A stretch of 42,869 nucleotides of DNA. Source: a virus. Positions 10,601 through 42,869 of this stretch are shown in pieces. Where the stretch lies: IMG/VR virus record IMGVR_UViG_3300034198_027426, positions 1 to 42,869 of that record. The stretch is one strand, 5' to 3'. The position numbers and the translations under genes are program-made. The notes beneath the pieces are model-generated. The model searched no databases and was not told the DNA's origin. It worked only from the letters and a program-made list of their open reading frames with translations. Position 1 is the first letter of the stretch, and each line of letters begins with the position of its first letter.

Positions 10601-12756
10601 TCGAGTTCAGCGTCGCCGTGCTGGTCGCGAAGCGCGCCAACCGCCTTCACGTCTTCGGCCGGGACCTCATGCAGCAATCCGAACTGCATGTCGCTGTAGC
10701 GATGACCGAGCACCTCGCCGTTGTCACCCAGCTTCACCTCGGCGGAGATGTCGCCCGGCGACGGCTGAGGTAGCGGGTTGGGCAGATGCTCCGAAGGCTC
10801 GGGCGGCATGATGCGCAACATCCCGTTCTGGCCGTCGGACGCGAGGAAGCCCAGCTTCTCGCCCATTTCGGTCTTGACGCGAACAAGGCCACGCGCGCGC
10901 AACGACTCCCGCTTGATGTACGGGTCGTTGATGGCATGAATGCCAACGCTGCCGTCGTCGTACGACACCATCACGACGCCGTTCTCCAGCAAGTCTGGAG
11001 CCTGGTGCGCGAATTCGAGGTCCTCCGCCGGAATCGACGCCAGGTCGGTGCCCAGCCCACCGAGCCGGCCCTTGGGCAGCTTCGCGGTGGCTGATTCGAC
11101 CTTGCCGGCGTAGTACCGGCGGAGGATTTCAGAGTACATGGGGCTGTTCAGCGCTTCCTGCGTCGCGAAAGTGCTGTTCTTCATCAGGTCTTCCAAGTCT
11201 TTCTGCGAAAGACCGTCGAGACTCTGGATGTTGTGCGAAATGGCGGTGCCGTCCGGCTGAACGGTGACGTCTTTCACCACCAAGTCGCCCTTCGGCGTGG
11301 TGGTGATGACCTGCGCGGCCGGTTCCGGCGGACGAACGCGGCGATTCGGCGACGCTGGAGTGCCATTCGGCCCGAACTTGGCCGACGGCTGCGTAGTCGG
11401 AGGCGTGTACTCGACGTGCGGAGCGCTCGCGAGAGCGTTCACAAGGTCGTGAGCCTGCTCCGGAGGCGTGAAAGCCACCGGCCGCATGGCGCTCTCCATG
11501 CCTGCGGCGGTTTCCTGGCTGAAGTCGGTGAGGTTCCGAGCCGCGCCCAGCAGCTTCCCGCCGCCATGGAAGACGCCGTTCATCACCGCGCCCTCGATGG
11601 GGTTCTCACCCTGCACCGCAGAGGCGAAGGCACCACCACCGAGCGCCGTTCCGAAGGTTGCACCCTCCCCGAGGCCTACTCCGTAGAGGGGCAGCACGAC
11701 ACCTTGGTGCAGGATGGGCTTCATCACCGCTGAAGCGTCCTCCGCGGTGACCGCGCCGGGCTTGGTCTTCGGCAGCCCACGCACGCCCTCGCCCACGTTG
11801 CCGCCACCGGCAAGCGTGTCGAGCGCAGCTTGGAAGCCCGCGGTCAGGTCCGTCTCGCCAACCTTCATCTTCGTGGGGTCGACAGGCTGCCCGGCCACGC
11901 CCTGATTCGCGGGCTCGCCGCTGATGGGGCTGACCGCCTCCCGGTACGCGTACTCCATCGCAGGACCAACGCCCGGAGCCTTGCCGATGACGTTGGCCAT
12001 GCGGCCGCCCGTGTTGTCGACGACAGCCTTGGCCGCGGGCTGCACGTACTTCTTCGCGATGTCGCCGGCAGCGTTGTACGCCGGCCGCACGCCGGGGCTC
12101 ACTGCGTCGGTGAAGGCTGCGAGCGCCTTGAGCACCGGATGCTCAGTCGGCGGCTCGGGCGGAGCGGGCTGGCCGCGGGTGGCCTGCTCGACCGTCGGAG
12201 CGCCACCCAGGTATTGCGACTCGGGCGTCTCAGCGGGAGCCGCCTCGCTCCGGTTCGCACCGAGTGCGGCCGCGCCGGCACCGACGGTCGCAGCCCCACC
12301 GAACACGTCCTTCCAGAAGAGGTCGTGCTTGTCTCGAAACTTCGCTGCCTCGGCGCGCCCGGCCGGAGACTCGAACTCCCGCAGGTCAGAGCGACGTTCA
12401 ACCGAGTTGGCCAAGTTGGTAGTCTCCGCCACCCTCGTTCGCGTCATTTTCTCGAACATAGGAGCGGCCGGAGCATATGGGTCCTGCATCTTCTTCGCGT
12501 CTTCAGGCACGACCCAGTTGTTGTACGAAGGAGTCACTCCGTTGACTTGAGCCGGCAGCACAGAGCCGGCACCGGAGAAAGCCGGGTCGACGCTGTGCTC
12601 TTGGGTGAGCGGGATGACCGGCGTGCCCAGCTCGTGGAGCTTGTCCGAAACGATTGCCGCGGACGCACCCTTCTCCGCGGCAGTCTTGCCCGCGTCCTTC
12701 CCGACCGTGCGCGCAAACTCTTCCAGCGCGTCGAGGATTGCAGACCCTTCGGACAT
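7666..12756 (-). CDS. Giant internal virion/ejection-type protein (1696 aa)
   Basis: 1696 residues, the largest gene. The N-terminal third is Ala/Gly/Pro-rich, with a glycine-rich hydrophobic stretch near residues 350-415. At about residues 775-812 there is a polyproline tract with repeated GEPPPP units, preceded by a charged coiled coil. The second half is helical and rich in charged residues (residues about 815-1600), ending in a basic lysine-rich tail. Size, composition and position next to two other Q/G-rich proteins fit ejection proteins that leave the capsid with the DNA. A hidden enzymatic domain cannot be excluded. Start supported by AAAGGAG. Confidence 0.75.
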   Translation of the reverse strand: MSEGSAILDALEEFARTVGKDAGKTAAEKGASAAIVSDKLHELGTPVIPLTQEHSVDPAFSGAGSVLPAQVNGVTPSYNNWVVPEDAKKMQDPYAPAAPMFEKMTRTRVAETTNLANSVERRSDLREFESPAGRAEAAKFRDKHDLFWKDVFGGAATVGAGAAALGANRSEAAPAETPESQYLGGAPTVEQATRGQPAPPEPPTEHPVLKALAAFTDAVSPGVRPAYNAAGDIAKKYVQPAAKAVVDNTGGRMANVIGKAPGVGPAMEYAYREAVSPISGEPANQGVAGQPVDPTKMKVGETDLTAGFQAALDTLAGGGNVGEGVRGLPKTKPGAVTAEDASAVMKPILHQGVVLPLYGVGLGEGATFGTALGGGAFASAVQGENPIEGAVMNGVFHGGGKLLGAARNLTDFSQETAAGMESAMRPVAFTPPEQAHDLVNALASAPHVEYTPPTTQPSAKFGPNGTPASPNRRVRPPEPAAQVITTTPKGDLVVKDVTVQPDGTAISHNIQSLDGLSQKDLEDLMKNSTFATQEALNSPMYSEILRRYYAGKVESATAKLPKGRLGGLGTDLASIPAEDLEFAHQAPDLLENGVVMVSYDDGSVGIHAINDPYIKRESLRARGLVRVKTEMGEKLGFLASDGQNGMLRIMPPEPSEHLPNPLPQPSPGDISAEVKLGDNGEVLGHRYSDMQFGLLHEVPAEDVKAVGALRDQHGDAELDAIIKKQKELKAAADFEAERTKEEALAKQRTQMIEAGQPPPTDPAIADPKSIVLPPLDAPAPAAEKLPPPPPPPPGEPPPPPPPPGEPPPPRPDDNPAQGKVLGTWMQQAGEAAFQLVKKFIPVTARGTFNKVRRSAAQLAMTQYTLQSGQFSEGIGEAVMKGVAEQFGGIPKDRMQGFVEDWNKVLLNEMDPEQFGRNWSQWAQHAQEFAERVKQGISLDDQLIHQLAPRLGEAGETTGSPEMDDFIRHYAVNLYDRYMLKPGRYAEIVSKDAAKMRKWEDWLIENNIKKDPRFQTASPAEQRRQANIQLNTLIGTDGYNESAHESPVLSGWLRSTKARAELPDMIREILGETDHGLIRLATTISRQKALIANLTVWKDVSLMGPDIFRPYAAGQGLTSDGRKFVQLLGQNGQPHQGLHGLAAGGFLHPDFHEMLVDMPRAAKESASAFNKLARFVKFNQVVLGGVGPWMNQIQGNAVGMMMSGANVSPWSMTRHLVNMSQDMKAFGKGGGAFLGRIGESSTIKDVEVAVRSARMLRAKELFGSFGTYDAAEMRGATNMLEKHLAGKYEEKDHGLMGMAINGMKAGMEGVGQAKNGLGHMFSMVDEAAKYTSWTGLLERGGIDLTTGRVTDIQKAKSFLGDQFRYGAGDQREVQKLIEREAARRVQASFPMLDRTAPAIRRLQNSAAVGLGLNPYLGIKTEMARTYTQFAGRLLDGEPGLRAHALKMAAVLGGVYGGILTARHINGVTDEQIQKGWENQPAQVKALHPGAMALWWHDDKGRPQYWDMQAFNEFLPYLQGTPEGSTIAKVLLNCGRLPFEGSLVDKYAIQPKLQALGAPVAPQYNPEIKTWRDAKPQVADMALDYMLPVVPRTLNTLKQTGKLGGQDHRYPAKPVLTTGQAAAKLLGARVIPAGKPGTPRQEFTRTEKQDIKDIRKAGKEAPNQLKGAFEGMTNPKQDMKYASDKMKSDVKQFKNRSK

Positions 12757-30620: not shown

Positions 30621-31325
30621 ATGACGCGACACTTCGAACAACCCGTACTCGGTTTCCAGAACGCAAAGACGGTCAAGGGCGAGTCCCTTGGCTACGTGAC
30701 CGCCATTCGGTACTTGGCCCCAGCGGACGAGTCGGGCATGTACGATGTCTGCCCAAACGCTGGCGCTTGCCGGTCGGTCTGCCTGTACACGGCTGGCCGC
30801 GGCGAATTCGCACAGGTGAAGGAAGCGCGCATCTGGAAAACCTACGCGCGCTTCGCAGACCTGCCCGCGCACCTTGCGCAGGCCAAGCGGGAAATCATCG
30901 CGGCGGAGCGCAAGGCGCGCGCGGCTGGCCTGACTCTGGTCGTGCGCATGAATGGTACGTCAGACTTGCCGGGTGACGCCATTGCGCTCGCTTACCAGCT
31001 GCCCGGCGTCCAGTTCTACGACTACACGAAGTTGCACGGTCTGTTGCTGCGCGACCTGCCCGCGAACTACCACCTGACTCTGTCGTACGACCCTCAGACG
31101 GTGCCGTGGGACATCTGCGAGCACGCGTTGACCGCCGGCTACAACGTGGCGGTCGCGTTCAACGTGCGGCGCAACGGCGACCTGCCCGAAACCTGGAACG
31201 GGGTGCGTGTCATCGACGGTGACGACCATGACCTGCGATTCCTCGACCCCAAAGGTGTCATCGTTGGGCTGCGCGCGAAGGGCGCGGCGCGGGGCGGTGC
31301 CTCTGAGTTCGTGGTGACCCCATGA
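30621..31325 (+). CDS. Gp88-like conserved phage protein with Cys motif
   Basis: 234 residues. CPNAGACRSVCLYTAGRG gives a C-x5-C-x3-C motif (C44, C50, C54). VVRMNGTSDLPG, YDYTKLHGLLL and IVGLRAKGAARG complete the pattern of the Gp88-like family known from mycobacteriophages and other phages. Function is unknown; the Cys triad and barrel-like layout suggest a metal or Fe-S site. GGGAGG precedes the ATG. Its stop overlaps the next ATG. It opens the long operon that ends in replication genes. Confidence 0.75.
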   Translation: MTRHFEQPVLGFQNAKTVKGESLGYVTAIRYLAPADESGMYDVCPNAGACRSVCLYTAGRGEFAQVKEARIWKTYARFADLPAHLAQAKREIIAAERKARAAGLTLVVRMNGTSDLPGDAIALAYQLPGVQFYDYTKLHGLLLRDLPANYHLTLSYDPQTVPWDICEHALTAGYNVAVAFNVRRNGDLPETWNGVRVIDGDDHDLRFLDPKGVIVGLRAKGAARGGASEFVVTP

Positions 31326-31600
31326 ACGCGCACGCACAGCGGGTCGCCATGACGGCCGCACAGCTGGCCTTCCACGTAGGTGAGCCGCAGACCGCGGCAG
31401 GTCGCGACTACTGCGCGGAAGCCTGCATGCGTGCGGCTCAGACCATTGAGCGGCGGCCGCCGAAGTTCTGGGCAACCCACGACTATGCGACCGCCGTGAA
31501 CTTGGTGGCGGCGTACATCCGCGATTTTCATGTGGAACCTGGCAGGTGGTGCCTCGACAAGGGCAACGACTGGGAAGTGATGTCGCGGCAGGTCAAGTGA
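31322..31600 (+). CDS. Early hypothetical protein (92 aa)
   Basis: 92 residues, all-helical appearance, with three Cys (around residues 31, 35 and 77). Coupled to the Gp88-like gene by a 4-nt overlap. No motif is recognised. It is followed by a 126-base gap holding a tRNA-like hairpin. Confidence 0.62.
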   Translation: MNAHAQRVAMTAAQLAFHVGEPQTAAGRDYCAEACMRAAQTIERRPPKFWATHDYATAVNLVAAYIRDFHVEPGRWCLDKGNDWEVMSRQVK

Positions 31601-31653
31601 CCGGCCGCGGCAGGCGGAAAGGCTGGGCACGTTTACGGGTTAGGCAGGTCGGC

Positions 31654-31692
31654 GCGCGTTGGCCACGCCCGGGTTCGATTCCCGGGGCGCGT
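31654..31692 (+). ncRNA. tRNA-like acceptor/T-arm minihelix
   Basis: CCGGG-TTCGATT-CCCGG (31669-31685) is a standard T-arm with the invariant TTCGA. The next seven bases (31686-31692) pair with GCGCGTT (31654-31660), some by wobble. No D- or anticodon arm fits, so it is not a full tRNA. It lies just before the gene at 31727 and shares 27 of 37 bases with 39076-39112. A decayed tRNA, a tRNA mimic or an RNA control element are all possible. Confidence 0.4.
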
Positions 31693-31726
31693 CTTGCTGT
31701 ACACTCGCAGTGGGAGGCAACACACC

Positions 31727-32032
31727 ATGAGCATCGAAGATGGAATGACCAAGGCGGAACGGGCGGCGTACGACGAAGAGTTGCCCGACTTGTTGGGCGA
31801 CGCACGCAAGGCATTGCGCGCAAGCGAGGAAAAGGCGCGGCTCGAATTCGTAGCGCGCGACCAGCGCATGCGCGCCGAACTGGCAGAGTCCAAGGCGGCC
31901 CGCCTGCAGGCTGCGCTTGACTTGGCGCTGACCAAGCTGTCGGCAGCCGAGAAGGAATGCCGCCGGCTTGACGACGTGGCCAAGCGCATGGAGCGGGAAC
32001 TTGACCGCTACATGGGCGAGGCGGAGGGCTGA
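31727..32032 (+). CDS. Coiled-coil early protein (101 aa)
   Basis: 101 residues from the ATG at 31727, chosen for GGGAGG upstream. Almost fully a charged coiled coil (ARKALRASEEKARLEF, later KLSAAEKECRRLDDVAKRME). No family. It is first after the tRNA-like element at 31654-31692, which may lie in its leader. Confidence 0.62.
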   Translation: MSIEDGMTKAERAAYDEELPDLLGDARKALRASEEKARLEFVARDQRMRAELAESKAARLQAALDLALTKLSAAEKECRRLDDVAKRMERELDRYMGEAEG

Positions 32033-32035
32033 CCC

Positions 32036-32458
32036 ATGAGGTTCGAAACCTGGACACGCGCCGAGGCAAATGCTCGGTTGCCCGAGGTGGTGCGGCACGA
32101 GTTGCATGCGTGGTGCGGCCCGCTGACTGACAGCGAGCGCGAGAACCAGCTGCTGACCGTGGCGCTGAGCAGCATCGACGGGGCAGTGATGGGGTTCCAG
32201 CTATATCAGCCGACGGCCGACCCCCGACAGCTGACGCGGAGCAAACGCGGGCGCAAGGCGACTGGCCTGTGGTCGCGCTTCACGTGGATCGCGCCCAAGT
32301 TCCGCGGCGTGGGACTGGCGGAGCGGCTGTGGCGGCAGACGCTGTCCAACATGCAACCGACGTACGTTGAAGTGCAGGCATGCAGCGCGGCGGGTAGCGC
32401 GCTCGTACGCAAGCTGAAGGAAGCAAACCCGAACCTGGAGTGGGAAACCAATGTCTGA
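32036..32458 (+). CDS. GNAT-like N-acetyltransferase
   Basis: 140 residues. FTWIAPKFRGVGLAERLW is the acetyl-CoA-binding motif A (RGVGLA), and VEVQACSAAGSALVRKLKEA is the following motif B type helix, both typical of GNAT enzymes. Substrates of phage GNATs range from small molecules to host proteins, so the target is unknown. It overlaps the next gene by 8 nt. Possible roles are counter-defence or host takeover, by position only. Confidence 0.72.
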   Translation: MRFETWTRAEANARLPEVVRHELHAWCGPLTDSERENQLLTVALSSIDGAVMGFQLYQPTADPRQLTRSKRGRKATGLWSRFTWIAPKFRGVGLAERLWRQTLSNMQPTYVEVQACSAAGSALVRKLKEANPNLEWETNV

Positions 32459-32669
32459 CATCACGCCGTACACGCTGGCCGACGTTGAACGCATCGAAGT
32501 CGAGCGCGAGAAGCCGTACGACCGACTCCGCGCGACCGTCGCGGCGCTGGACGAGGCGCGGGAGGTGTTGCGCGAACTGCTCGACTCGCACGAGGTGTAC
32601 CACCAAGACGGCGGAGCGGCGCACATCGAAGCGCGCGCCCGCGCCGTACTGGCCCGAGGTGGGCGATGA
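32451..32669 (+). CDS. Small helical hypothetical protein (72 aa)
   Basis: 72 residues, helical and charged (ATVAALDEAREVLRELLDS) with an LLDSHEVYHQDGG turn. Not recognised. Overlaps both neighbours, so it is translated within the early operon. Confidence 0.6.
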   Translation: MSDITPYTLADVERIEVEREKPYDRLRATVAALDEAREVLRELLDSHEVYHQDGGAAHIEARARAVLARGGR

Positions 32670-32995
32670 AGGCACTGTACGACTCACCGCCAGCACTGGA
32701 GTGTGTGGCGCTGGTACCTGGCGGCTACATCTTCGCGGAATACCTAGAGCAACACAGACGTGAACTGTTCTTCAGCCACCGGTTCCAAGCCATCGAGTGG
32801 GCGCTGCGGCGTGGGCTGAAGTTCAGCATGGAGGACAACCAGCCGCCCGAGTTGCACGCGCTGGACTTCATGCCGCGCGAGCAGGACGTGGACGACGTGA
32901 GCACGTGGGCGAACGGGCTGAACGCGCTCAACGCGGGGTCGCACGTCGGCAACGACACCAGCGTGCCTGACTCTGTGGTAGGCGGTGACGTATGA
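32666..32995 (+). CDS. Early hypothetical protein (109 aa)
   Basis: 109 residues, mixed alpha-beta (VALVPGGYIFAEYLEQHRRE, then HRFQAIEWALRRGLKF) with an acidic disordered C-terminus. No family is recognised. Starts by ATGA overlap with the previous gene and ends by overlap with the RepA-like ATPase, so it may assist it. Confidence 0.6.
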   Translation: MKALYDSPPALECVALVPGGYIFAEYLEQHRRELFFSHRFQAIEWALRRGLKFSMEDNQPPELHALDFMPREQDVDDVSTWANGLNALNAGSHVGNDTSVPDSVVGGDV

Positions 32996-33819
32996 GCCAC
33001 GGCTTGAGCGAAGAGGACGTGTTCGGAGTTTGGTCAGACCTCAGCGCGGCGGTGAAGCAGCCGCCACAGTGGGTCATCGAGAACCTGCTGCCGGCTGGCG
33101 TGGTGTTCCTCGCTGGCCCACCCAAGGCACAGAAGACCACGGTCGAAATGGCCATGGCGCTGACGGTGGCAGGCATCGAACACACCGTGCTGCCCGAGGA
33201 ACTGCGCCGCTGCCCTGAGCCTGGCCGCGTCATGCTCATCAACGCCGAGCACACCGCGGGCGAGTTGCTCGAAATGGTGGAGGACGGGTTCCGCGTACAG
33301 GTCGAGGTGGCGAACGCAATCATGGTGGCAGACGAGCCGTTCCAGTGGCGGCTCGACGACCACGACGGCGGCACGAAGCTGATGAAGTGGCTGGACTTCT
33401 ACCGCCCCAAGCTGTTCGCCATCGACCCGCTGCGCGACTTCCACGACCTCGACGAGAAGGAGTCAGGCGAAATGAACCGGCTACTGCGTCCGATTCAGCG
33501 GTGGGCGAAGAACGCCGGCAGCACCGCGCTCATCGTGCATCACGCACGCAAGCCTGGCGGCTCGAAAGAAGACGGCGACAAGCTGTACACGGCGGCCGAC
33601 ATGCGCGGCAGTAGCGCGCTCTTCGGTCTGGCAGATGGGGTCATCGTGCTGACGCCGCGGGGTAGGGCTGGCGTGCATTTCGACGTGGTGACCAAGCGCG
33701 GCGGAGCGCCGTGGTCGCGGACGGTGAAGCTGGGTGCGTGGGTCAAGCCCGCGCCCGAAGAGGTGAAGGCGGCGGTCGAGCAGGCAACCAAGGCGGCAGA
33801 AGAGGGAGACATGCAATGA
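32992..33819 (+). CDS. RepA/AAA_25-like RecA-fold ATPase
   Basis: 275 residues. Walker A AGPPKAQKTT (41-50), Walker B LFAIDPLRDF (D145), and IVHHARKPGG (H183, H184) followed by ADMRGSSALFGLAD match the RSF1010 RepA-like / AAA_25 group of RecA-fold ATPases used as replicative helicases or recombination motors. The C-terminus is Lys/Glu/Ala-rich. Its place in the early operon supports a DNA-unwinding role in phage replication. No other DnaB-like helicase was seen. Confidence 0.8.
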   Translation: MSHGLSEEDVFGVWSDLSAAVKQPPQWVIENLLPAGVVFLAGPPKAQKTTVEMAMALTVAGIEHTVLPEELRRCPEPGRVMLINAEHTAGELLEMVEDGFRVQVEVANAIMVADEPFQWRLDDHDGGTKLMKWLDFYRPKLFAIDPLRDFHDLDEKESGEMNRLLRPIQRWAKNAGSTALIVHHARKPGGSKEDGDKLYTAADMRGSSALFGLADGVIVLTPRGRAGVHFDVVTKRGGAPWSRTVKLGAWVKPAPEEVKAAVEQATKAAEEGDMQ

Positions 33820-34142
33820 AATGGAAGGCACACATCAGCACGTTCGCAGCGTCGGTCGTTGAGATTGAGGGCGTCTCGTTCGACGCGGCCGGCGACCAGC
33901 ACCACATTCAGTTCAAGCTGGAGCCGAGCAGCAACCCGGTCTTCGACATGGCGGTGTTCCCTGTCGACGAGGAGGCCGCCCAGTTCCCCCAGTCCAAGGC
34001 GCAGTACATCGCGTTCCTGGCGATGGAGTTGCTGCTCAAGCGCATGCTGTCGCACGTGCAGGACCGGCTGGGCATGGGCATTGAGGAGAAGTCGTGGGCG
34101 CAGCCCATCGAGCCCGACTCGGAGAAAGTGGGCAAGGCTTGA
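33816..34142 (+). CDS. Hypothetical replication-operon protein (108 aa)
   Basis: 108 residues from the ATG at 33816, which overlaps the ATPase stop (ATGA). A beta-rich N-half (AASVVEIEGVSFDAAGDQHH) is followed by a helix (YIAFLAMELLLKRMLSHVQD). The family is not recognised. It lies between an ATPase and a helicase, so an accessory replication role is plausible. Confidence 0.63.
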   Translation: MKWKAHISTFAASVVEIEGVSFDAAGDQHHIQFKLEPSSNPVFDMAVFPVDEEAAQFPQSKAQYIAFLAMELLLKRMLSHVQDRLGMGIEEKSWAQPIEPDSEKVGKA

Positions 34143-35671
34143 AGCTCGACATCGCAATCAAGGCCGGCGTCTGGGAGGTTGGCCCCGTCGACCCGTCGGT
34201 GACTGAGCACATTCCCGGCATGCTGATGCGCGGCCTGAAGGCTGTCGGCTCGCGAGACGCAGCGTCGGTGCTCTTCAAACGGCTGGGCTACAACTACGTG
34301 ACGCAGTCACAGCCGCCGGCACCGTACCTCAGCCCTGACTGGGGCACACTGCGCTCGTACCAGCGGGACGGCGTGGCTCGGCTGCGGCAGATGCTGAGCG
34401 GCGAAGGCGGGGCCATCCTCGCCGACGACATGGGGCTCGGGAAGACGGCGCAGACCATCGCGACGTGGGATGCGCTCAAGCGGCCGTGGCCCCTGATGGT
34501 GTGTGCGCCTGCCTCGGTCCGCCGCACCTGGCTGCGCGAGTTCAACCGCTGGGTGCCCGGCGTGCCCGTGCTGCTGGCCGACACGTCGAAGAAGCTGACG
34601 CTCGCCGGGCCACACACACCCGTCGTGGTGACCAGCTACGAGTTGGCGGCGAAGAGCACGCCGGCTGCATTCTCACCGGCCATGCTGGTGTTCGACGAGG
34701 CGCACCTGCTCCGCGGCCGACAGGCGCAGCGCAGCCAGGCTCTGTTCGAACTGGCGCGGGTGGCCAGCTACCGGCTGGCGCTGACCGGCACGCCCATCTG
34801 GTCGCGACCGCGCGACTGGTGGATGCTGCTGAAGATTCTGTACGGCTACCGCTTCGGCACCGCGGACCAGTTCGACTACGCGTACTGCGCCGCGTTCGTG
34901 AACCAGTGGGGCGGCAAGGAGAACGCAGGCATCAGCCGTCCTGAAGAACTGAAGCAGCGCATCGCCCACGTGATGCTGCGCCGCCTCAAGGAAGACGTGG
35001 CCACCGAGATTCCGCCGCTCACCCGGCTGGTGAAGTGGGTGCCTGGAACGAAGGAAGCGAAGCGGGCCAGCGAGGCTGCGGTGCTGGGCAACCTGCACGT
35101 GAGCGACGCGCTGGAGGCGACGCTGCTCGCCAAGATTCCGGTGGCAGTCGAGGCGATGCGCGAAGCGGGCATCAGCGTCGTGTTCACGTGGCGCAAGGTC
35201 GACGCGTACAAGTTGGCGGAGGACTTCACGGCAGACACAGGCGAGCCGTGCGAAGTCATCACGGGCGACATCACGCACAAGGAGCGTCAAGCCATCGTCG
35301 ACCGCTGCGTGGCCAAGCGTACAAGCCTGGTCGCGACCATCGATTCGACGGGTACAGGCGTGGACGGGCTGCAGAACATTTCGAGCAACGGCATCTTCCA
35401 CGCGCTTGACTATACCCCCATCAAGCTGGCACAAGCGGAGGCTCGCCTCCACCGCCTCAATAGTACAAAGCCGGTAACATGGACGTACATCGCCATGGAA
35501 GACACGGTGGATGAGGCGGTGGTGGAGACGGTGGTCGAGAAGCTCGACCAGTGGAGGCAGCTGATGGGTGAAGACAGCACTGCAGGCATCGGGACGGGTC
35601 TGCAGAACAACGCCGCGGCGAGCGAAGAGGCTGCGCTTAACGCAATCCTGGAGGCAATGAAAGATGAGTGA
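34094..35671 (+). CDS. SNF2-type superfamily 2 helicase
   Basis: 525 residues. Q-motif Q90, Walker A ADDMGLGKTAQT (about 110-121), DEAH (201-204) and TGTP (231-234) in the first lobe; TSLVATIDSTGTGVDGLQ and QAEARLHRLN (motifs V and VI) in the second. This is the SNF2/helicase order used for DNA translocation. The GTG at 34094 is chosen for GAGGAG five bases upstream; a TTG at 34139, overlapping the previous stop, would remove 15 residues. Probably acts in replication or recombination. Confidence 0.87.
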   Translation: MGAAHRARLGESGQGLKLDIAIKAGVWEVGPVDPSVTEHIPGMLMRGLKAVGSRDAASVLFKRLGYNYVTQSQPPAPYLSPDWGTLRSYQRDGVARLRQMLSGEGGAILADDMGLGKTAQTIATWDALKRPWPLMVCAPASVRRTWLREFNRWVPGVPVLLADTSKKLTLAGPHTPVVVTSYELAAKSTPAAFSPAMLVFDEAHLLRGRQAQRSQALFELARVASYRLALTGTPIWSRPRDWWMLLKILYGYRFGTADQFDYAYCAAFVNQWGGKENAGISRPEELKQRIAHVMLRRLKEDVATEIPPLTRLVKWVPGTKEAKRASEAAVLGNLHVSDALEATLLAKIPVAVEAMREAGISVVFTWRKVDAYKLAEDFTADTGEPCEVITGDITHKERQAIVDRCVAKRTSLVATIDSTGTGVDGLQNISSNGIFHALDYTPIKLAQAEARLHRLNSTKPVTWTYIAMEDTVDEAVVETVVEKLDQWRQLMGEDSTAGIGTGLQNNAAASEEAALNAILEAMKDE

Positions 35672-35855
35672 CCCTGAAGATGTGGGCAAGGACGCACGCA
35701 TGGCTGCGTTCGTTCAGGCGTACGACGCCATGACCGAAGCGGTGATGCACCTGTCGGCGGAAGACCGGGCGGACGTCATCGCCGACCTCATCGAAGCGTT
35801 GGACGCAGAGTTGGACGCCATCGACGGCGAACAGAAGGACGGGGAGGAAGAATGA
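35664..35855 (+). CDS. Small acidic hypothetical protein (63 aa)
   Basis: 63 residues, very acidic and helical (DRADVIADLIEALDAELDAI). It overlaps both neighbours and so is part of the operon. DNA-mimic or partner-binding roles are possible for such acidic proteins, but nothing here is specific. Confidence 0.58.
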   Translation: MSDPEDVGKDARMAAFVQAYDAMTEAVMHLSAEDRADVIADLIEALDAELDAIDGEQKDGEEE

Positions 35856-36802
35856 ACGACGACAAGGTGGACATCGAGCCGTTGCTCGGTGAGGGCGGTC
35901 CGTCTCCCTTCGGCTACCACGCTGTCGAGAGCTACCTCTGGTGCCCGAAGGAGTACCAGTACGACAAGGTCCGCAAGGTGACGGTGCCGCGCGCTGCGAC
36001 GCCTGACTACTTCGCGGTCGGCAGCATGGTCCACGCCGGCCGGGCGAAGTGGTTCGCTGAGAAGTTCAACATGGCGACCGAGAGCATCGCCGCGGTGATG
36101 CAGGCGACCGAAGACGCGGCTGCGAAGTACCCGCTGCCCGTGTCAGGCGAGGCCATCAAGGAAGCGAAGCGGTACGTGACGGAGTACATCGAGCACTACT
36201 CCATCCAGGCCAAGCCGAAGGTCATCGCCGCGGAGTACCCCATCGAGGGCGACCTCTACGTGCCGTTCGTGTCCACCAAGCGGACCGCCCGGTTGGACGA
36301 CGTCAGCTTCTACGCCGAGGCGCAGGGCAAGCTGTGCGTGGGCGAGTGCAAGACCACTGGCAGTGACATCCCCTCGACCGTGCTGCAGTACACCATGCAC
36401 GGCCAGCCCTCGCTGCAGGTGCTGCTCTGGAAGAAGAACGCCGCGCACATGTACGGCGACGTGGCCGGGGTGATGCTCGACATCATCAAGAAGGGCTACA
36501 AGGGCAAGCGCTGCGAGTTCGCCCGCCGCTTCGTCGAAGTCACGCCGCACATGCTCGCCTGGTACGAGCGGAGCCTCGCCGCGAACGTGGTCGACGCGGG
36601 CCTCGTGAAGTGGGACAGCGAGCCCGAACGGCGCATCACCAGCTGCACTCGCATGGTCGGCCGCGGTCGGGTGCAGTGCCGCTACTTCGACCTGTGCCGC
36701 TTCGGCAGGGACGCGGCGCTGTCGTACGTGACCGAGAACGATGGGAAGCGCCTCACCGACTACGAGCCCAAGCCGGGCCAGGAGAAGATGCCATGGGAGT
36801 GA
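35852..36802 (+). CDS. PD-(D/E)XK nuclease, Cas4/RecB-like with Fe-S Cys set
   Basis: 316 residues. GSMVHAG (H61), RLDDVSF (D149), GECKTTG (E165, K167) and LQYTMHGQ give the RecB/Cas4 nuclease core. C31 together with C265, C276 and C282 forms the one-plus-three cysteine set that holds an Fe-S cluster in Cas4, AddB and related nucleases. It would resect or trim DNA ends. Next to a Sak4-like recombinase and SSB-like gene it fits a phage recombination system. No other Cas genes are present. Confidence 0.85.
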   Translation: MNDDKVDIEPLLGEGGPSPFGYHAVESYLWCPKEYQYDKVRKVTVPRAATPDYFAVGSMVHAGRAKWFAEKFNMATESIAAVMQATEDAAAKYPLPVSGEAIKEAKRYVTEYIEHYSIQAKPKVIAAEYPIEGDLYVPFVSTKRTARLDDVSFYAEAQGKLCVGECKTTGSDIPSTVLQYTMHGQPSLQVLLWKKNAAHMYGDVAGVMLDIIKKGYKGKRCEFARRFVEVTPHMLAWYERSLAANVVDAGLVKWDSEPERRITSCTRMVGRGRVQCRYFDLCRFGRDAALSYVTENDGKRLTDYEPKPGQEKMPWE

Positions 36803-37209
36803 GCGATATCTGCCGCTGCGGTCACGAGCGGCTGCAGCATCCACTGGGTCGATGCACCGTCTGCCGCGACGACCGAACGTCTCTGGGCTGTCGTATGTTC
36901 GTGGACCGGAGCGATGAGCGCCCGCCGGTCAGCCCGGCCCGCATCGAGCCTCCGGTGGACGTGAGACCCGACCCGGTGAACAAGCCGGCCCACTACCGAG
37001 TGGGTTCGTTGGAAACCATCGACATCATCGAAGCCATCGCCGAGTCCTACAAGGATGACCCCGCGGGGGCGTACCTTGCCGGCACCGCCGTGAAGTACAT
37101 CGGCCGCGCCATGCACAAGGGCAACGCGGTGCAGGACCTGGAGAAGTCCGTTCGCTACATCGTCCGTCTCATTAACCACATCGAAGGGAAGAAATCATGG
37201 GAACGCTGA
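36793..37209 (+). CDS. DUF3310-like protein with N-terminal zinc knuckle
   Basis: 138 residues from the ATG at 36793 (GGAG upstream). C-x-C and C-x2-C near the N-terminus (CRCGHERLQHPLGRCTVC) look zinc-binding. The C-terminal half, with VNKPAHYRVGSLETIDIIEA and VKYIGRAMHKGN, is the DUF3310 domain common in phages and of unsettled function. Overlaps both neighbours by about 10 nt. May take part in nucleotide or DNA metabolism, by context. Confidence 0.75.
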   Translation: MGVSDICRCGHERLQHPLGRCTVCRDDRTSLGCRMFVDRSDERPPVSPARIEPPVDVRPDPVNKPAHYRVGSLETIDIIEAIAESYKDDPAGAYLAGTAVKYIGRAMHKGNAVQDLEKSVRYIVRLINHIEGKKSWER

Positions 37210-38057
37210 GGGAAGACAAGAGCCGGTCGCAGTACCTGAAGACGTACCTCGTGGCCGGTGGCAAGGAAGGGAAGACCACCTTCCTCACCGCCAGCATCCT
37301 TGGCGCGCTGCCGCACCAGAAGGAGGGCGGGCTGGTGGACAAGCCGCAGCACCTCCACGTTCTGGCCATCGACAGCAACGCGGTCGGCGGGCTCGGCGAC
37401 TTCATCACCAAGCTGTGCAAGCGGCCCGAGTCGTACCTCGACGTGGACGTCATCAACCTGCAGGACCAGGCGCGGACGACGTCGCTCGGCAGCAGCGACT
37501 GGGACTACAGCTTCTTCAACGCGATGGTCCTCTCCGTGAAAGAGGTCAAGGAGAAGATTGCCAAGTCGCCGGGCGTGCATGCGGTCGTCATGTCCTCGCT
37601 GACCGGCCTGGCCGAAGCGCTGCAGCGTGGCCTGTCTGGCCCGCCGAACCCGATGAAGAAGGGCGGCGGCATGGACGAGAGCAAGTGGCAGGACCTCAGC
37701 CGGCAGCTCATCGAGATTCGCAACCTGCTGCAGGTCGACACGCATCACGTGTTCTGGGAAGGCCACGTTTTCCGCAGCGGCAGCAAGGACCAGGTGCATG
37801 ACGAGGTCGGCGTGCCCGGCAAGGTCGGTCGCAACTGGGGCTTCAACGTGGACCAGGTGTTCCGTCTGCGGCGGGAACTGCGAGTGATGTACCCCAACTC
37901 GCAGGTGGAGAAGCAGTACGTGGACACCAAGCCCACGCTCGACTTCACGAGCGGCGGTCGCGGCTTCACGGGGGTGTTGGCTGACAAGGAATACGACCTT
38001 GTTGACGTCGCCAAGCGTCTCGGGTACAAGGTCGGTGGCTGGAAGGCCGAGTCGTAG
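37197..38057 (+). CDS. Sak4-like RecA-fold recombinase
   Basis: 286 residues. Walker A VAGGKEGKTTF (G21-T28 region), then AVVMSSLTGLAEAL (Walker B-like) and THHVFWEGHVF match AAA_24/Sak4 phage ATPases that anneal or exchange single strands with SSB help. It sits just after the nuclease and before the SSB-like gene, a common Sak4 setting. A pure ATPase role in replication is an alternative. Confidence 0.78.
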   Translation: MGTLREDKSRSQYLKTYLVAGGKEGKTTFLTASILGALPHQKEGGLVDKPQHLHVLAIDSNAVGGLGDFITKLCKRPESYLDVDVINLQDQARTTSLGSSDWDYSFFNAMVLSVKEVKEKIAKSPGVHAVVMSSLTGLAEALQRGLSGPPNPMKKGGGMDESKWQDLSRQLIEIRNLLQVDTHHVFWEGHVFRSGSKDQVHDEVGVPGKVGRNWGFNVDQVFRLRRELRVMYPNSQVEKQYVDTKPTLDFTSGGRGFTGVLADKEYDLVDVAKRLGYKVGGWKAES

Positions 38058-38085
38058 TACACACGAAGTACAAGGGAGACACACA

Positions 38086-38331
38086 ATGACTGAGAAGACG
38101 AAGAGCCGTACGGCGTTCAAAGACCTGTGCAACGCGGTGCCGGTGGTCGGTGCCCTGGACGTGACGAAGTACTTCCTCAAGCGCGGCCACACGAAGGAAA
38201 CGCTGTCGAAGAAGGTCGGCAGCTACCGCACCGCGGCGCGCAGGAACGGGATGTACCTCAAGACCGATGGTGGCCGCGCGTTTCTCATGACGGTCGGCTA
38301 CGCGAAGAACCAGAACTTCACCACGCTCTGA
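38086..38331 (+). CDS. Small basic hypothetical protein (81 aa)
   Basis: 81 residues from the ATG at 38086 (AGGGAG upstream). Basic, with a helical middle (LDVTKYFLKRGHTKETLSKK) and a basic KVGSYRTAARRNG segment that could contact DNA. Not recognised. It lies between recombinase and SSB-like genes. Confidence 0.6.
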   Translation: MTEKTKSRTAFKDLCNAVPVVGALDVTKYFLKRGHTKETLSKKVGSYRTAARRNGMYLKTDGGRAFLMTVGYAKNQNFTTL

Positions 38332-38395
38332 CTCACGAACTTCACTTCCGCAACTTCACAACGCAGTACCAAATGCAGGACAGAAAGGGTCGCAC

Positions 38396-38902
38396 ATGAC
38401 TACGGGTGAGAAGCGCTTCAGCACGGCAGGTCGTCAGGTGAAGTCTGGTTTCCCGGTGATTCCTCAGGGCGAGTACGAGCTTGTGCTCAAGCCCGGCAGC
38501 GAGGTCCGCACCGCGGATGGCCCCGGGAAGATTCCGTACGTGAACTGCCAGTTCGAGGTTCTCGGCACGGCGAAGAAGGAAGGCGGCAAGAACCTCACGG
38601 TGTACCACCGCTTCCTGCTCGGCCTGAACCCGGGCAAGGACGGCATCATCAACATGGACCGCGGCAACGGGCTGACCGCGTTCAGCGCGGTGGTGGACCA
38701 GGCCATCGATGCCGGCATCACCGAGCGGGACGTCGAAGTCGACGGCTCGTCGGTCCACCAGGAGTTCCTCAACCCCCGCGAGGTGGTGGAGTTCCTGAAC
38801 ACGCTGGAAGGCAAGACGGTCCGCGCCTACATCAAGGTGAAGAAGAGCGAGGGGTACGACGACTCGAACGAGATCGGCCGCTTCTCTCCCAACAAGAAGT
38901 GA
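38396..38902 (+). CDS. SSB-like / DUF669-type DNA-binding protein
   Basis: 168 residues. IPQGEYELVLKPGSEVRT, PYVNCQFEVLGTAKKEGG and the ending KSEGYDDSNEIGRFSPNKK follow the pattern of OB-fold DUF669-like phage proteins that often accompany Sak-type recombinases. It probably coats ssDNA and loads the Sak4-like protein. It has its own leader with GAAAGGGTCGCACATGAC, like the early genes, and is followed by a hairpin. Confidence 0.65.
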   Translation: MTTGEKRFSTAGRQVKSGFPVIPQGEYELVLKPGSEVRTADGPGKIPYVNCQFEVLGTAKKEGGKNLTVYHRFLLGLNPGKDGIINMDRGNGLTAFSAVVDQAIDAGITERDVEVDGSSVHQEFLNPREVVEFLNTLEGKTVRAYIKVKKSEGYDDSNEIGRFSPNKK

Positions 38903-38913
38903 CGTAGAACAGA

Positions 38914-38940
38914 GGCGAACGGTAGGGGTTGCCGCTCGCC
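38914..38940 (+). terminator. Hairpin after the SSB-like gene
   Basis: GGCGAACGG (38914-38922) pairs with CCGCTCGCC (38932-38940) except for one A-C mismatch, with a 9-nt loop. It is 12 bases beyond the stop; TTCCGGTGTT follows. Terminator or mRNA 3' stabiliser. Confidence 0.5.
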
Positions 38941-39011
38941 TTCCGGTGTTGTGATTGGGCACGCCGAACAACCCCAGCCCAGTCTGACAGGGAGGAAAGA
39001 CTCCCACTTGT

Positions 39012-39101
39012 GCCCTGCTGGAGAAATGGCAACTCGCTCGGTCTGACCTCGGGGTGAAACCCGACTACGAGAGGACCTCGGTTCGTATCCGGGGGCGGGG
39101 C
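39012..39101 (+). ncRNA. Degenerate type II tRNA-like element
   Basis: GCCCTGC (39012-39018) pairs with GCGGGGC (39095-39101). GAG (39021-39023) and CTC (39033-39035) close a D-arm with the standard AAATGGCAA loop, and CTCGG-TTCGTAT-CCGGG (39077-39093) makes a T-arm. The 90-nt length fits a long-variable-arm tRNA (Leu/Ser type). The anticodon loop is not canonical (no U33) and position 58 is T instead of A, so decoding is doubtful. It lies between the SSB-like gene and the gene at 39128 and shares sequence with 31668-31704. Confidence 0.45.
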
Positions 39102-39127
39102 TTGCAGCACAACCTGGGAGGTTGCAC

Positions 39128-39619
39128 ATGACGGAAGAACAGAAGAGCACCGGCCTCGTCGTCCGCAGTGAACTGATGCGCGAACTGCAGAAGTTCGGGC
39201 AGTGGCTGAGTGAGATGACCGACGCTCAGCTGCCCGAAGTCCTCGACTTCGTGACTCGGCTGGAGAAGAACATCGAGGGCACCCGCAGCATCCTGAAGGA
39301 ACGGGCGCTGCTGTACCTCAACGTCCACGGCATCGCCGAGGGTGAGAAAGGCACGAAGGCGGCGCAGGTCGGGCAGTACACGGTGAAGGCGATTCCGACC
39401 CGGACCGGCCTCGACCCGAAGAAGCTGGAGAAGGCGCTCCGCACGAAGGGCATCGACCCCAACGTGGCGATGAAGCCGACCGTGTCGTACGCGGTGGACC
39501 CCGACAAGGTGGCGGCGATGCGTGTCGCCGGCACTCTCACCGAGCAGGACATCGAGGCGTGCCAGTACGACCGTTCGTACCGCATCGACGTGAAGCGTGG
39601 CGAAGACGAAGAGCAGTGA
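39128..39619 (+). CDS. Hypothetical operon protein (163 aa)
   Basis: 163 residues from the ATG at 39128 (GGGAGG upstream). Helical N-half (LMRELQKFGQWLSEMTDAQL) and a basic middle (KAIPTRTGLDPKKLEKALRT). No family is asserted. It starts a new run after a 225-base gap holding a terminator-like hairpin and a tRNA-like element, and leads into the polymerase genes. Confidence 0.63.
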   Translation: MTEEQKSTGLVVRSELMRELQKFGQWLSEMTDAQLPEVLDFVTRLEKNIEGTRSILKERALLYLNVHGIAEGEKGTKAAQVGQYTVKAIPTRTGLDPKKLEKALRTKGIDPNVAMKPTVSYAVDPDKVAAMRVAGTLTEQDIEACQYDRSYRIDVKRGEDEEQ

Positions 39620-41328: not shown

Positions 41329-41422
41329 CTTCGCCGACTGCCCCTGCCCCGGCCCGACCCAGGATGGGTTCGAGTACCGGGTGAGGAACCGTCGGCTGGA
41401 GGCGCGGCGATGCGCATCCTGA
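41165..41422 (+). CDS. Cys-rich small protein with CPCPGPTQD motif (85 aa)
   Basis: 85 residues, coupled to the UDG stop (ATGA). The C-terminal half has CDEDGNCPTCGVDFADCPC followed by PGPTQDGFEY; this Cys cluster plus PGPTQD recurs in many phage proteins as I recall them, and likely binds zinc. The first 28 residues are Ser/Thr/Lys-rich and lie antiphase to the 41095 frame, so this N-terminus is doubtful. Overlaps the exonuclease gene by 13 nt. Confidence 0.58.
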   Translation: MSTNAPSSRSTSKKPSTTATTSSSPKLASCENEWRTVVFAADCDEDGNCPTCGVDFADCPCPGPTQDGFEYRVRNRRLEARRCAS

Positions 41423-42087
41423 CTTGGTCGCCGGGCCACGCGTTGTTCGGCCAGCCGTACGAGATGGGCAACCTCGCCTGCGACCTGGCCCGCTTCGGCC
41501 GGATGATTCGCGGCGAGTTGGAGCCCAAGCCCTCACAGCTGCGGACGTGGGCCACGCACCACGACCTCGCCTCGCTGGTGAAGACGGGCGAGCCACTGGC
41601 CTGCGACATCGAGACTGCGCCGGCCAACTCGGCTGAGCCGTGGACCGGCAAGGACCCGACCCGCGCCAAGCTAAAGACCATCGGCTTCGGCACCTGCATG
41701 GAAGCGCTCAGCATCTACTGGCCGGACGCTGACGAGACGACCCAGCTGATGGTGCGCGAAGTGCTGGCAGATGCAGCGGTGAAGAAGGTCTTCCACAACG
41801 GGCCGTGGTTCGACCACCGCGTGCTGAACCGCTACGGACTGCCGACCACCAACTTCGACGACACCCGCGACATGCGTCGGGTGCTGTCGTCCACGTCGCG
41901 CCTGTCGCTGCTGTACCTCGGCTCCATCTACACCGACTTTCACAACTGGAAGGACGCGGAGGAGGACGAGGAGAAGACGTGGGAGAGCACCGACCTGGAG
42001 AAGCTGATGCTGTACAACGCGTTGGACTGCATCGTGACCGCCCGCGTGTACCGCGGCATTCTGCGTGACTGGGAGGCAGCCGAATGA
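41410..42087 (+). CDS. DnaQ-like 3'-5' exonuclease (split from polymerase)
   Basis: 225 residues. LACDIETAP (Exo I; D and E), FHNGPWFDHRVL (Exo II) and LYNALDCIVTARVY (Exo III) give the DEDDy proofreading exonuclease of family A polymerases. The N-terminus (about 1-60) resembles the linker before that domain. Its stop overlaps the polymerase ATG at 42084 (ATGA), so the two halves are probably made together and pair as a proofreading enzyme. Confidence 0.88.
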   Translation: MRILTWSPGHALFGQPYEMGNLACDLARFGRMIRGELEPKPSQLRTWATHHDLASLVKTGEPLACDIETAPANSAEPWTGKDPTRAKLKTIGFGTCMEALSIYWPDADETTQLMVREVLADAAVKKVFHNGPWFDHRVLNRYGLPTTNFDDTRDMRRVLSSTSRLSLLYLGSIYTDFHNWKDAEEDEEKTWESTDLEKLMLYNALDCIVTARVYRGILRDWEAAE

Positions 42088-42869
42088 GCAGACTCCTTGA
42101 CCTGCACGAGCAGCACCGCGGTCTGAGCGCTCTGTGCGCTGAGATGCACACGACGGGCATCTGGGTGAACAAGCTCTGGCGCGACGTCATGCTGAGCTTC
42201 ACCGCCCAGGCTGTCGAGGAGAAGGCCGCCGCTCTCGTTGCGCTGGTCGACCACCCAGAGTTCCGGCCGACGCCGAACTCGATGCGGAGCCTCATCTACA
42301 AGAAGCACGAGACGAAGAAGCTCAGTCGCTTCAGCCTGCCGGACCCCATCGACAAGCGGATGTACAGCAAGAAGCGGCCAGAGAACATCAGCGTCAACGA
42401 GAACAGCCTGCTCCTGCTGATGGTTAGCGGTGCCTGCTCGCCAGAGCTGACGGCCATCATCGAGGCGTGGTGGGAGTACCAGGGTGAGTACAAGCGGCAG
42501 GGCTACCTGAAGAGCGAACTGCTCGACCAGGCCATCGGGCCGGACGGCCGACTGCGACCGGGCTGGAACAGCTGCGGCACCGACACAGGCCGCTTCAGCT
42601 GCAGCGCCCCCAACGTGATGAACATCGAGCAGCTGCTCCGCCACATGTTCGGCCCAGCACCGGGCAACGTGATGGTCCACGCCGACAAGAGCCAGCTTGA
42701 GTTGCGCGTAATGGCTGCGGTTGCGGCAGACAACACACTGCAGGACGCGCTCAACACTGGCGACGTGTACAGCTTCAATGCCAAGCAGATGTTCCAGCTT
42801 CCCGACGACACGGACGTCAAGAAGACACACGCCGGCTTGCGAAAGGCAGCCAAGATTATCCACCTCGGC
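42084..42869 (+). CDS. DNA polymerase family A, N-terminal part (continues at base 88)
   Basis: The first 262 residues of the 429-residue polymerase, running off the right end. TDTGRFSCSAPNVMNIE (about 167-181) is the conserved template/primer-binding segment, and HADKSQLELRVMA is motif A (D201), the first catalytic metal ligand. The thumb is shorter than in Pol I and there is no exonuclease. The ATG overlaps the exonuclease stop (ATGA). After the join the protein carries motifs B and C and ends at base 591. Confidence 0.93.
   Translation, partial: MSRLLDLHEQHRGLSALCAEMHTTGIWVNKLWRDVMLSFTAQAVEEKAAALVALVDHPEFRPTPNSMRSLIYKKHETKKLSRFSLPDPIDKRMYSKKRPENISVNENSLLLLMVSGACSPELTAIIEAWWEYQGEYKRQGYLKSELLDQAIGPDGRLRPGWNSCGTDTGRFSCSAPNVMNIEQLLRHMFGPAPGNVMVHADKSQLELRVMAAVAADNTLQDALNTGDVYSFNAKQMFQLPDDTDVKKTHAGLRKAAKIIHLG
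42783..42869. repeat. Right copy of 87-bp terminal direct repeat
   Basis: Identical to bases 1-87, inside the polymerase gene. Removing one copy gives a circle of 42,782 bp with an unbroken polymerase frame. Confidence 0.97.

Follow-up and report, generated by a model that had tools for sequence, protein, structure and literature searches.

A recurrent and apparently undescribed tRNA-like element upstream of early genes in a virus contig and at gene junctions of other phages

Two short stretches that precede early genes in a virus contig resemble parts of tRNAs, and the question raised by this locus is what such partial tRNAs do between genes. The window, that is, the whole stretch of DNA analysed, is IMG/VR record IMGVR_UViG_3300034198_027426, a 42.9-kb virus contig of 65% G+C. 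The two stretches, here called E1 and E2, had been picked out in a sequence-only reading as decayed tRNAs, tRNA mimics cut by host RNase P or translation-control leaders. From sequence comparison, E1 clearly belongs to a recurrent phage RNA element that is apparently undescribed, and E2 is probably a related long form, a member of the same class. Our preferred reading, to which a probability of about 0.45 is given, is that E1 (clearly) and E2 (probably) are phage intercistronic tRNA-like elements acting as a processing mark on polycistronic mRNA, with a 3′ cut by RNase Z the most likely event. The parts of the two elements, with the basis of each, are as follows.

31651-31697, plus strand: E1, an anticodon-less tRNA-like element of acceptor, D-loop-like linker, T-arm and UUGC tail (covariance model R1 and fold).
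31651-31657, plus strand: 5′ acceptor strand of E1, GGCGCGC, with its partner GCGCGUC at 31687-31693 (sequence; pair probabilities 0.97-0.99 in the isolated fragment).
31658-31667, plus strand: linker of E1, GUUGGCCACG, with a D-loop-like UGG as in relatives (sequence and linker table).
31668-31686, plus strand: T-arm of E1, CCCGGG-UUCGAUU-CCCGGG, 6 bp (sequence; sub-threshold Rfam T-arm alignments).
31694-31697, plus strand: UUGC tail of E1 (enrichment of CTTGC over the control tail CGTTC; UUGC in copies from isolates).
31692-31715, plus strand: alternative hairpin of E1, in which CUUGC pairs with part of the GGGAGG ribosome-binding site (minimum free energy structure of the leader).
39012-39105, plus strand: E2, a long-form tRNA-like element (acceptor and T-arm at a probability of about 0.72 in the isolated fragment; 12.3 bits with R1).
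39012-39018 with 39095-39101, plus strand: 7-bp acceptor of E2 (sequence).
39021-39035, plus strand: D-arm-like stretch of E2, GAGA-AAUGGCAA-CUC (sequence; modelled pair probability only 0.11).
39037-39053, plus strand: possible, unstable anticodon-arm-like stretch of E2 with the loop UCUGACC (sequence; pair probability 0).
39076-39094, plus strand: T-arm of E2, CCUCGG-UUCGUAU-CCGGGG, with U for A at position 58 (sequence).
39102-39105, plus strand: UUGC tail of E2 (sequence).
39110-39124, plus strand: hairpin of E2, CAACCU-GGG-AGGUUG, over the ribosome-binding site (fold constrained to the tRNA-like form).

The likeness first reported between the two stretches was found to be exact, 31668-31704 and 39076-39112 sharing 27 of 37 bases. 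None of 300 shuffles of E1 reached 27/37 anywhere in the window; one of 300 random 37-mers from the window did, and identity alone is thus modest evidence. The arrangement of a T-arm, 10 nt and CTTGC did not occur in any of 400 Markov-resampled windows. Both elements carry, as had been described, the T-arm (5 bp, or 6 with the next pair), the seven acceptor-side bases, CTTGC, GGGAGG and ATG (GGGAGG at 31712-31717 and ATG at 31727 for E1; 39116-39121 and 39128 for E2). The 7-bp acceptor attributed to E2 is present; of the D-arm attributed to it, a D-arm-like stretch can be seen in the sequence but is hardly paired in the model. E1, said to keep only acceptor and T-arm, has both, and also a linker with UGG that had been overlooked. 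Folded alone, the E1 fragment is predicted to adopt exactly the acceptor and T-arm structure (probability about 0.93).

Neither element was recognized as a tRNA. ARAGORN gave no tRNA at E1 or E2, and so no standard call with an intact anticodon; Rfam at gathering thresholds gave no match for either, and the Rfam matches to the E2 stretch included no tRNA family even when E was allowed to rise to 10. The T-arm and acceptor stem of a canonical tRNA are found in both, whereas the anticodon arm (5 bp, 7-nt loop, U33) is found in neither. E1 is too short to hold one. In E2 the loop UCUGACC has C at position 33 where an anticodon arm has U33, in agreement with the claim that it lacks a normal anticodon loop, and a full cloverleaf is predicted to be about 7.5 kcal/mol worse than the best fold. 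That the elements are decayed tRNA genes is improbable, even if E2 has a D-arm-like stretch in a Ser(UGA)-like layout, is called tRNA-Ser(tga) by ARAGORN at a relaxed setting, and the nearest relative of the virus, MW202637, holds two real tRNAs. The same relaxed setting makes 93 calls across the window. For E1 the idea of decay fails: the element recurs, its acceptor pairing is kept despite base changes, [U/C]GG and the UUGC tail are conserved, no compact member has an anticodon, and several copies per genome stand at a fixed gene-junction place in unrelated phages.

Recurrence was assessed by pattern scans of viral contigs. A specific pattern yielded one further copy in an unrelated phage, at the junction of a putative major capsid gene with the gene after it. 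A looser pattern (T-arm, 10 nt, CTTGC) was then compared with a control bearing the reversed tail CGTTC in the same IMG/VR collection; of the unique matches listed, 26 of 97 with CTTGC were non-tRNA T-arms that had A58 and all 5 bp of the stem, as against 5 of 103 with the control. A complete scan with the commonest T-loop gave at least 45 stretches, counts from such exact-pattern searches being lower bounds and the lineages not independent. From the IMG/VR scans, 38 non-tRNA T-arm/CTTGC stretches were pooled with E1 and E2; not every pooled stretch is a proven member, and on inspection some, L034, L045 and L098 among them, may be fragments of real tRNAs. Within the pool, acceptor pairing was 4.76 as against 3.70 (sd 0.14) when acceptor strands were swapped among loci, a value reached in 0 of 2000 shuffles. 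A descriptor independent of the tail gave 27 non-tRNA matches in the loci, as against none once the DNA had been reversed or shuffled, and further copies with other tails lay in five contigs already holding one (L268, L041, L095, L042, L060).

The class that emerges combines an acceptor helix of 5-8 bp stacked on the T-arm, a short [U/C]GG linker and a tail of UU(G)C. The linker of compact members contains UGG or CGG, like G18-G19 of a D-loop, and there is no anticodon in any of them; some long forms carry another hairpin at that place. In an alignment of 27 sequences, 89.5% of pair cells are paired, both sides have changed in 10 of 12 pairs, and the covariation score is 0.886 as against 0.165 after shuffling. 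These pair counts are biased, and the acceptor-swap and descriptor tests are the unbiased ones, since the 5′ strand in the alignment was chosen by pairing. A plain MAFFT alignment was rejected, having misplaced the 5′ acceptor strand, and N-padded sequences were used for the model instead. By these comparisons, the tRNA-like element is present at gene junctions of several unrelated phages.

The covariance model, R1, was built without window sequences. It recovered the held-out E1 with 32.0 bits and E=3.5e-6 (reported span 31654-31697), and gave E2 12.3 bits and E=0.83 with a model that leaves no room for a long insert; all R1 E-values are rough. The two elements are not on a par: E1 is a clear member and E2 only a probable one, assigned by its likeness to E1 and its context, not by the covariance model. 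In the stretches of control contigs analysed with R1, 775 kb in all, no score exceeded 21.7 bits, and the best in 1.25 Mb from 80 contigs with a related helicase did not pass 18.4 bits. In full records at E<=0.01, R1 found the element in 23 of 24 element-bearing contigs, which had been chosen for the element, and gave hits in 3 of 24 controls (best control 25.9 bits).

The position of the element recurs as well. E1 lies between a 92-aa open reading frame (ORF; stop at 31600) and a 101-aa ORF (ATG 31727), with the stop about 50 nt before it and the start 29 nt after its tail. E2 is flanked by an SSB-like gene, whose stop (at 38902) is about 110 nt before it, and by a 163-aa ORF, whose ATG (39128) comes 22 nt after it. 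Among 37 copies, which include related phages and are not all independent, the stop codon ends at 0 to +6 of the 5′ end of the element in 15, inside or touching the 5′ acceptor strand, and lies at most 13 nt upstream in 9 more; the downstream start is often 27-31 nt past the tail (29 in E1). One contig, L268, carries a copy at each of five consecutive junctions, about 6-15 nt past a stop codon in every case. Copies are also present in the cultured cyanophages P-SSP2, P-SSP3, NATL2A-133 (two), S-SBP1, S-TIP37, S-RIP2 and P-GSP1, and none was annotated among the features inspected around them; UUGC is kept in several isolate copies that were not chosen by tail. Between psbA and the capsid gene, P-GSP1 and S-TIP37 have a short ORF for a Y-R-G peptide and then a copy or copy-like stretch, and reading of the P-SSP2 sequence gave the same arrangement there.

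How might such an element act? Several tRNA enzymes recognize their substrates by an acceptor and T-arm core that has a D-loop-like GG. The linker UGG would dock in the T-loop as in the tRNA elbow, and host tRNA enzymes would then take the element for a 3′ pre-tRNA. A cut by RNase Z after position 73 would leave a tRNA-like 3′ end on the upstream message, and the downstream one would acquire a new 5′ terminus (UUGC...) immediately ahead of its ribosome-binding site. Co-transcribed early genes could thereby be separately stable and translated, and cutting may be accompanied by a direct influence on how accessible the ribosome-binding site is. The suggestion of a mimic for tRNA-processing enzymes survives, but RNase P in particular is less likely than RNase Z: the upstream stop codon is often in the 5′ acceptor strand, and a 3′ cut fits better because a 5′ cut would remove that stop codon in many relatives. 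RNase Z is present in cyanobacteria (PMC10989914). The enzyme cuts directly after the discriminator, where any base serves, and a C immediately downstream of the discriminator suppresses cutting (RNase Z paper); the element presents N73 followed by UU. It is put forward, tentatively, that several unrelated phage lineages punctuate their mRNAs around the stop codon with anticodon-less tRNA mimics cut by the host tRNA 3′-end nuclease. Searches of open-licence literature returned no description of such phage elements.

The leader idea stands as the main rival, if a doubtful one. The tRNA-like fold would compete with, or position, a hairpin over the ribosome-binding site, and an elbow-binding factor or an upstream terminating ribosome would shift the balance. 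A predicted hairpin over GGGAGG does follow both window copies, that of E1 using CUUGC itself, and ribosomes terminating at the stop codon within the acceptor of relatives would open the acceptor. The downstream hairpin, however, is not always over the Shine-Dalgarno sequence (L093), and L268 has sequence resembling bacterial promoters between each of its copies c and e and the gene that comes next, an arrangement that suggests a 3′ role. Such a role need not involve cutting: as a tRNA-like structure at the 3′ end of the mRNA, the element could protect or form that end, and the hairpin after it would be the terminator. In many relatives the element begins at the stop codon and a hairpin comes after the tail (L041, L044, L060, L063, L078, L093, L111). 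Near the window copies no terminator-like site was found, and the downstream gene starts within about 30 nt, so that transcription must continue; this alternative is considered unlikely.

Two further explanations were weighed. As a decoy, the element would occupy host tRNA-modifying or tRNA-targeting defence enzymes, and a tRNA-like fold with no anticodon to cut would suit that task; its fixed stop-to-start position suggests a cis role instead, and a decoy is very unlikely. An attachment site (attP) matching the 3′ end of a host tRNA would typically consist of a T-arm and acceptor 3′ half, as here. The 24-mer core of E1 was not found in 84,980 GTDB species genomes, no integrase was seen among the early genes scanned, and relatives hold several different copies per genome; an attP is thus extremely unlikely. 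In the GTDB species genomes the pattern of T-arm, CTTGC and GGAGG, similar to the one that had yielded the first viral copy, gave only two true tRNAs and apparent coding or chance matches, in 11 stretches.

Several observations weigh against processing by RNase Z as the role of E1 and E2. The base at position 73 is paired in both, unlike in the best-matching relatives. In models that ignore tertiary contacts, the alternative leader fold is better than the tRNA-like form by about 3-4 kcal/mol for E1 and about 1 kcal/mol for E2, and E2 is not significant on its own. The element is also patchy in distribution, not being found in the nearest relatives MW202637 (which has no such element at the matching place) and MW202477 or in the 80 helicase-relative contigs. 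Finally, the B. subtilis enzyme, unlike archaeal ones, did not process intron-containing or arm-less substrates (RNase Z paper).

The minus strand of the window encodes the structural genes and the plus strand the early/replication genes; E1 and E2 are both found in this plus-strand early region. An 87-bp direct terminal repeat is present at the ends of the contig, which may therefore be a complete genome. A promoter and terminator search near the window copies found none, searches of viral contigs with the proteins of the genes downstream of the elements gave no match, and a DNA search of the phage collection with the region found no relative. The two downstream genes are as follows.

31727-32032, plus strand: 101-aa gene 3′ of E1, no function assigned (ORF list and protein searches).
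39128-39619, plus strand: 163-aa gene 3′ of E2, no function assigned (39% identity to a MW202637 protein).

A GP88-family protein (PF17338) is encoded at 30621-31325, by the second gene upstream of the 101-aa ORF; to judge by eye, the genes that follow the element in L041 and L067 look similar. A family-A DNA polymerase is seemingly split into two ORFs, 41410-42087 and 42084-42869, which overlap by ATGA (42084-42087); the second runs on at 7-591 through the terminal repeat, and the pair aligns to residues 3-225 and 230-653 of a single MW202637 ORF. At 1380-1520 there is a weak match to the Rhizobiales sRNA Atu_C7 (26.6 bits, below gathering) with a strong terminator-like hairpin at its end. 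In L268, sigma-70-like promoter sequences lie at 11131-11187 and 11857-11903, after copies c and e. In L018, at 2348-2401, a short Y-R-G peptide ORF and then a tRNA-like element are preceded by a match to the glutamine-II riboswitch (RF01704), and P-SSP2, P-GSP1 and S-TIP37 have by eye a similar sequence; the riboswitch was rejected as the identity of the element, being the sole Rfam match in the loci scanned but a separate element. On the minus strands of L098 (near 2668) and L034 (near 3607), a T-arm and acceptor 3′ strand are directly followed by a tRNA 5′ half with complementary acceptor; these phage sequences may represent a circularly permuted tRNA or part of a tRNA array. A circularly permuted tRNA, considered for these two, does not fit E1 or E2.

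The element was compared with known tRNA-like RNAs. mascRNA/MEN beta (RF01684), found at the 3′ end of a mammalian long non-coding RNA, shares the acceptor, a tiny D-like arm and the T-arm; E1 aligns to it end to end with 21.3 bits, below the 42.5-bit gathering score, but mascRNA is not known to be tied to cistron junctions. Y RNAs of bacteria and phages (YrlA) mimic the T-loop and D-loop of tRNA. The Deinococcus Y RNA matches E1 in the T-arm only, below threshold, and no Ro60-binding stem was seen; no Y RNA match reached Rfam gathering, and ten neighbouring proteins gave no Ro60/TROVE Pfam match. The tRNA-like domain of tmRNA also has an acceptor and T-arm without an anticodon arm, but the phage element has neither a resume reading frame nor CCA, and the T-arm alone matches (12.3 bits, below threshold). 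The RNase III sites between T7 early genes likewise mark points of processing between cistrons, in the early region of a related type of phage; they are plain hairpins cut by a double-strand RNase, whereas the phage element is tRNA-like. A proven analogue is the t-element of plant mitochondria, a tRNA-like structure at mRNA ends, where RNase P and RNase Z define transcript ends that are CCA-tailed and not aminoacylated (PMC11658184). The phage element shares the place at gene junctions, mature mRNA ends there being putative. t-Elements occur in organelles and share homology with entire tRNA genes; the phage elements have a UUGC tail and no anticodon arm, are situated between genes and are cleaved only in the proposed scheme.

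Punctuation of transcripts by tRNAs is well known in mitochondria, whereas a multi-copy, anticodon-less version at phage cistron junctions appears undescribed. The descriptor is ready to be used in the annotation of intergenic DNA of phages, and a direct test is possible in those cultured phages in which copies are present. The element class may explain early-transcript processing in some T7-like cyanophages and, if the proposal is true, would constitute a tRNA-punctuation system for phage mRNA that has had no Rfam annotation.

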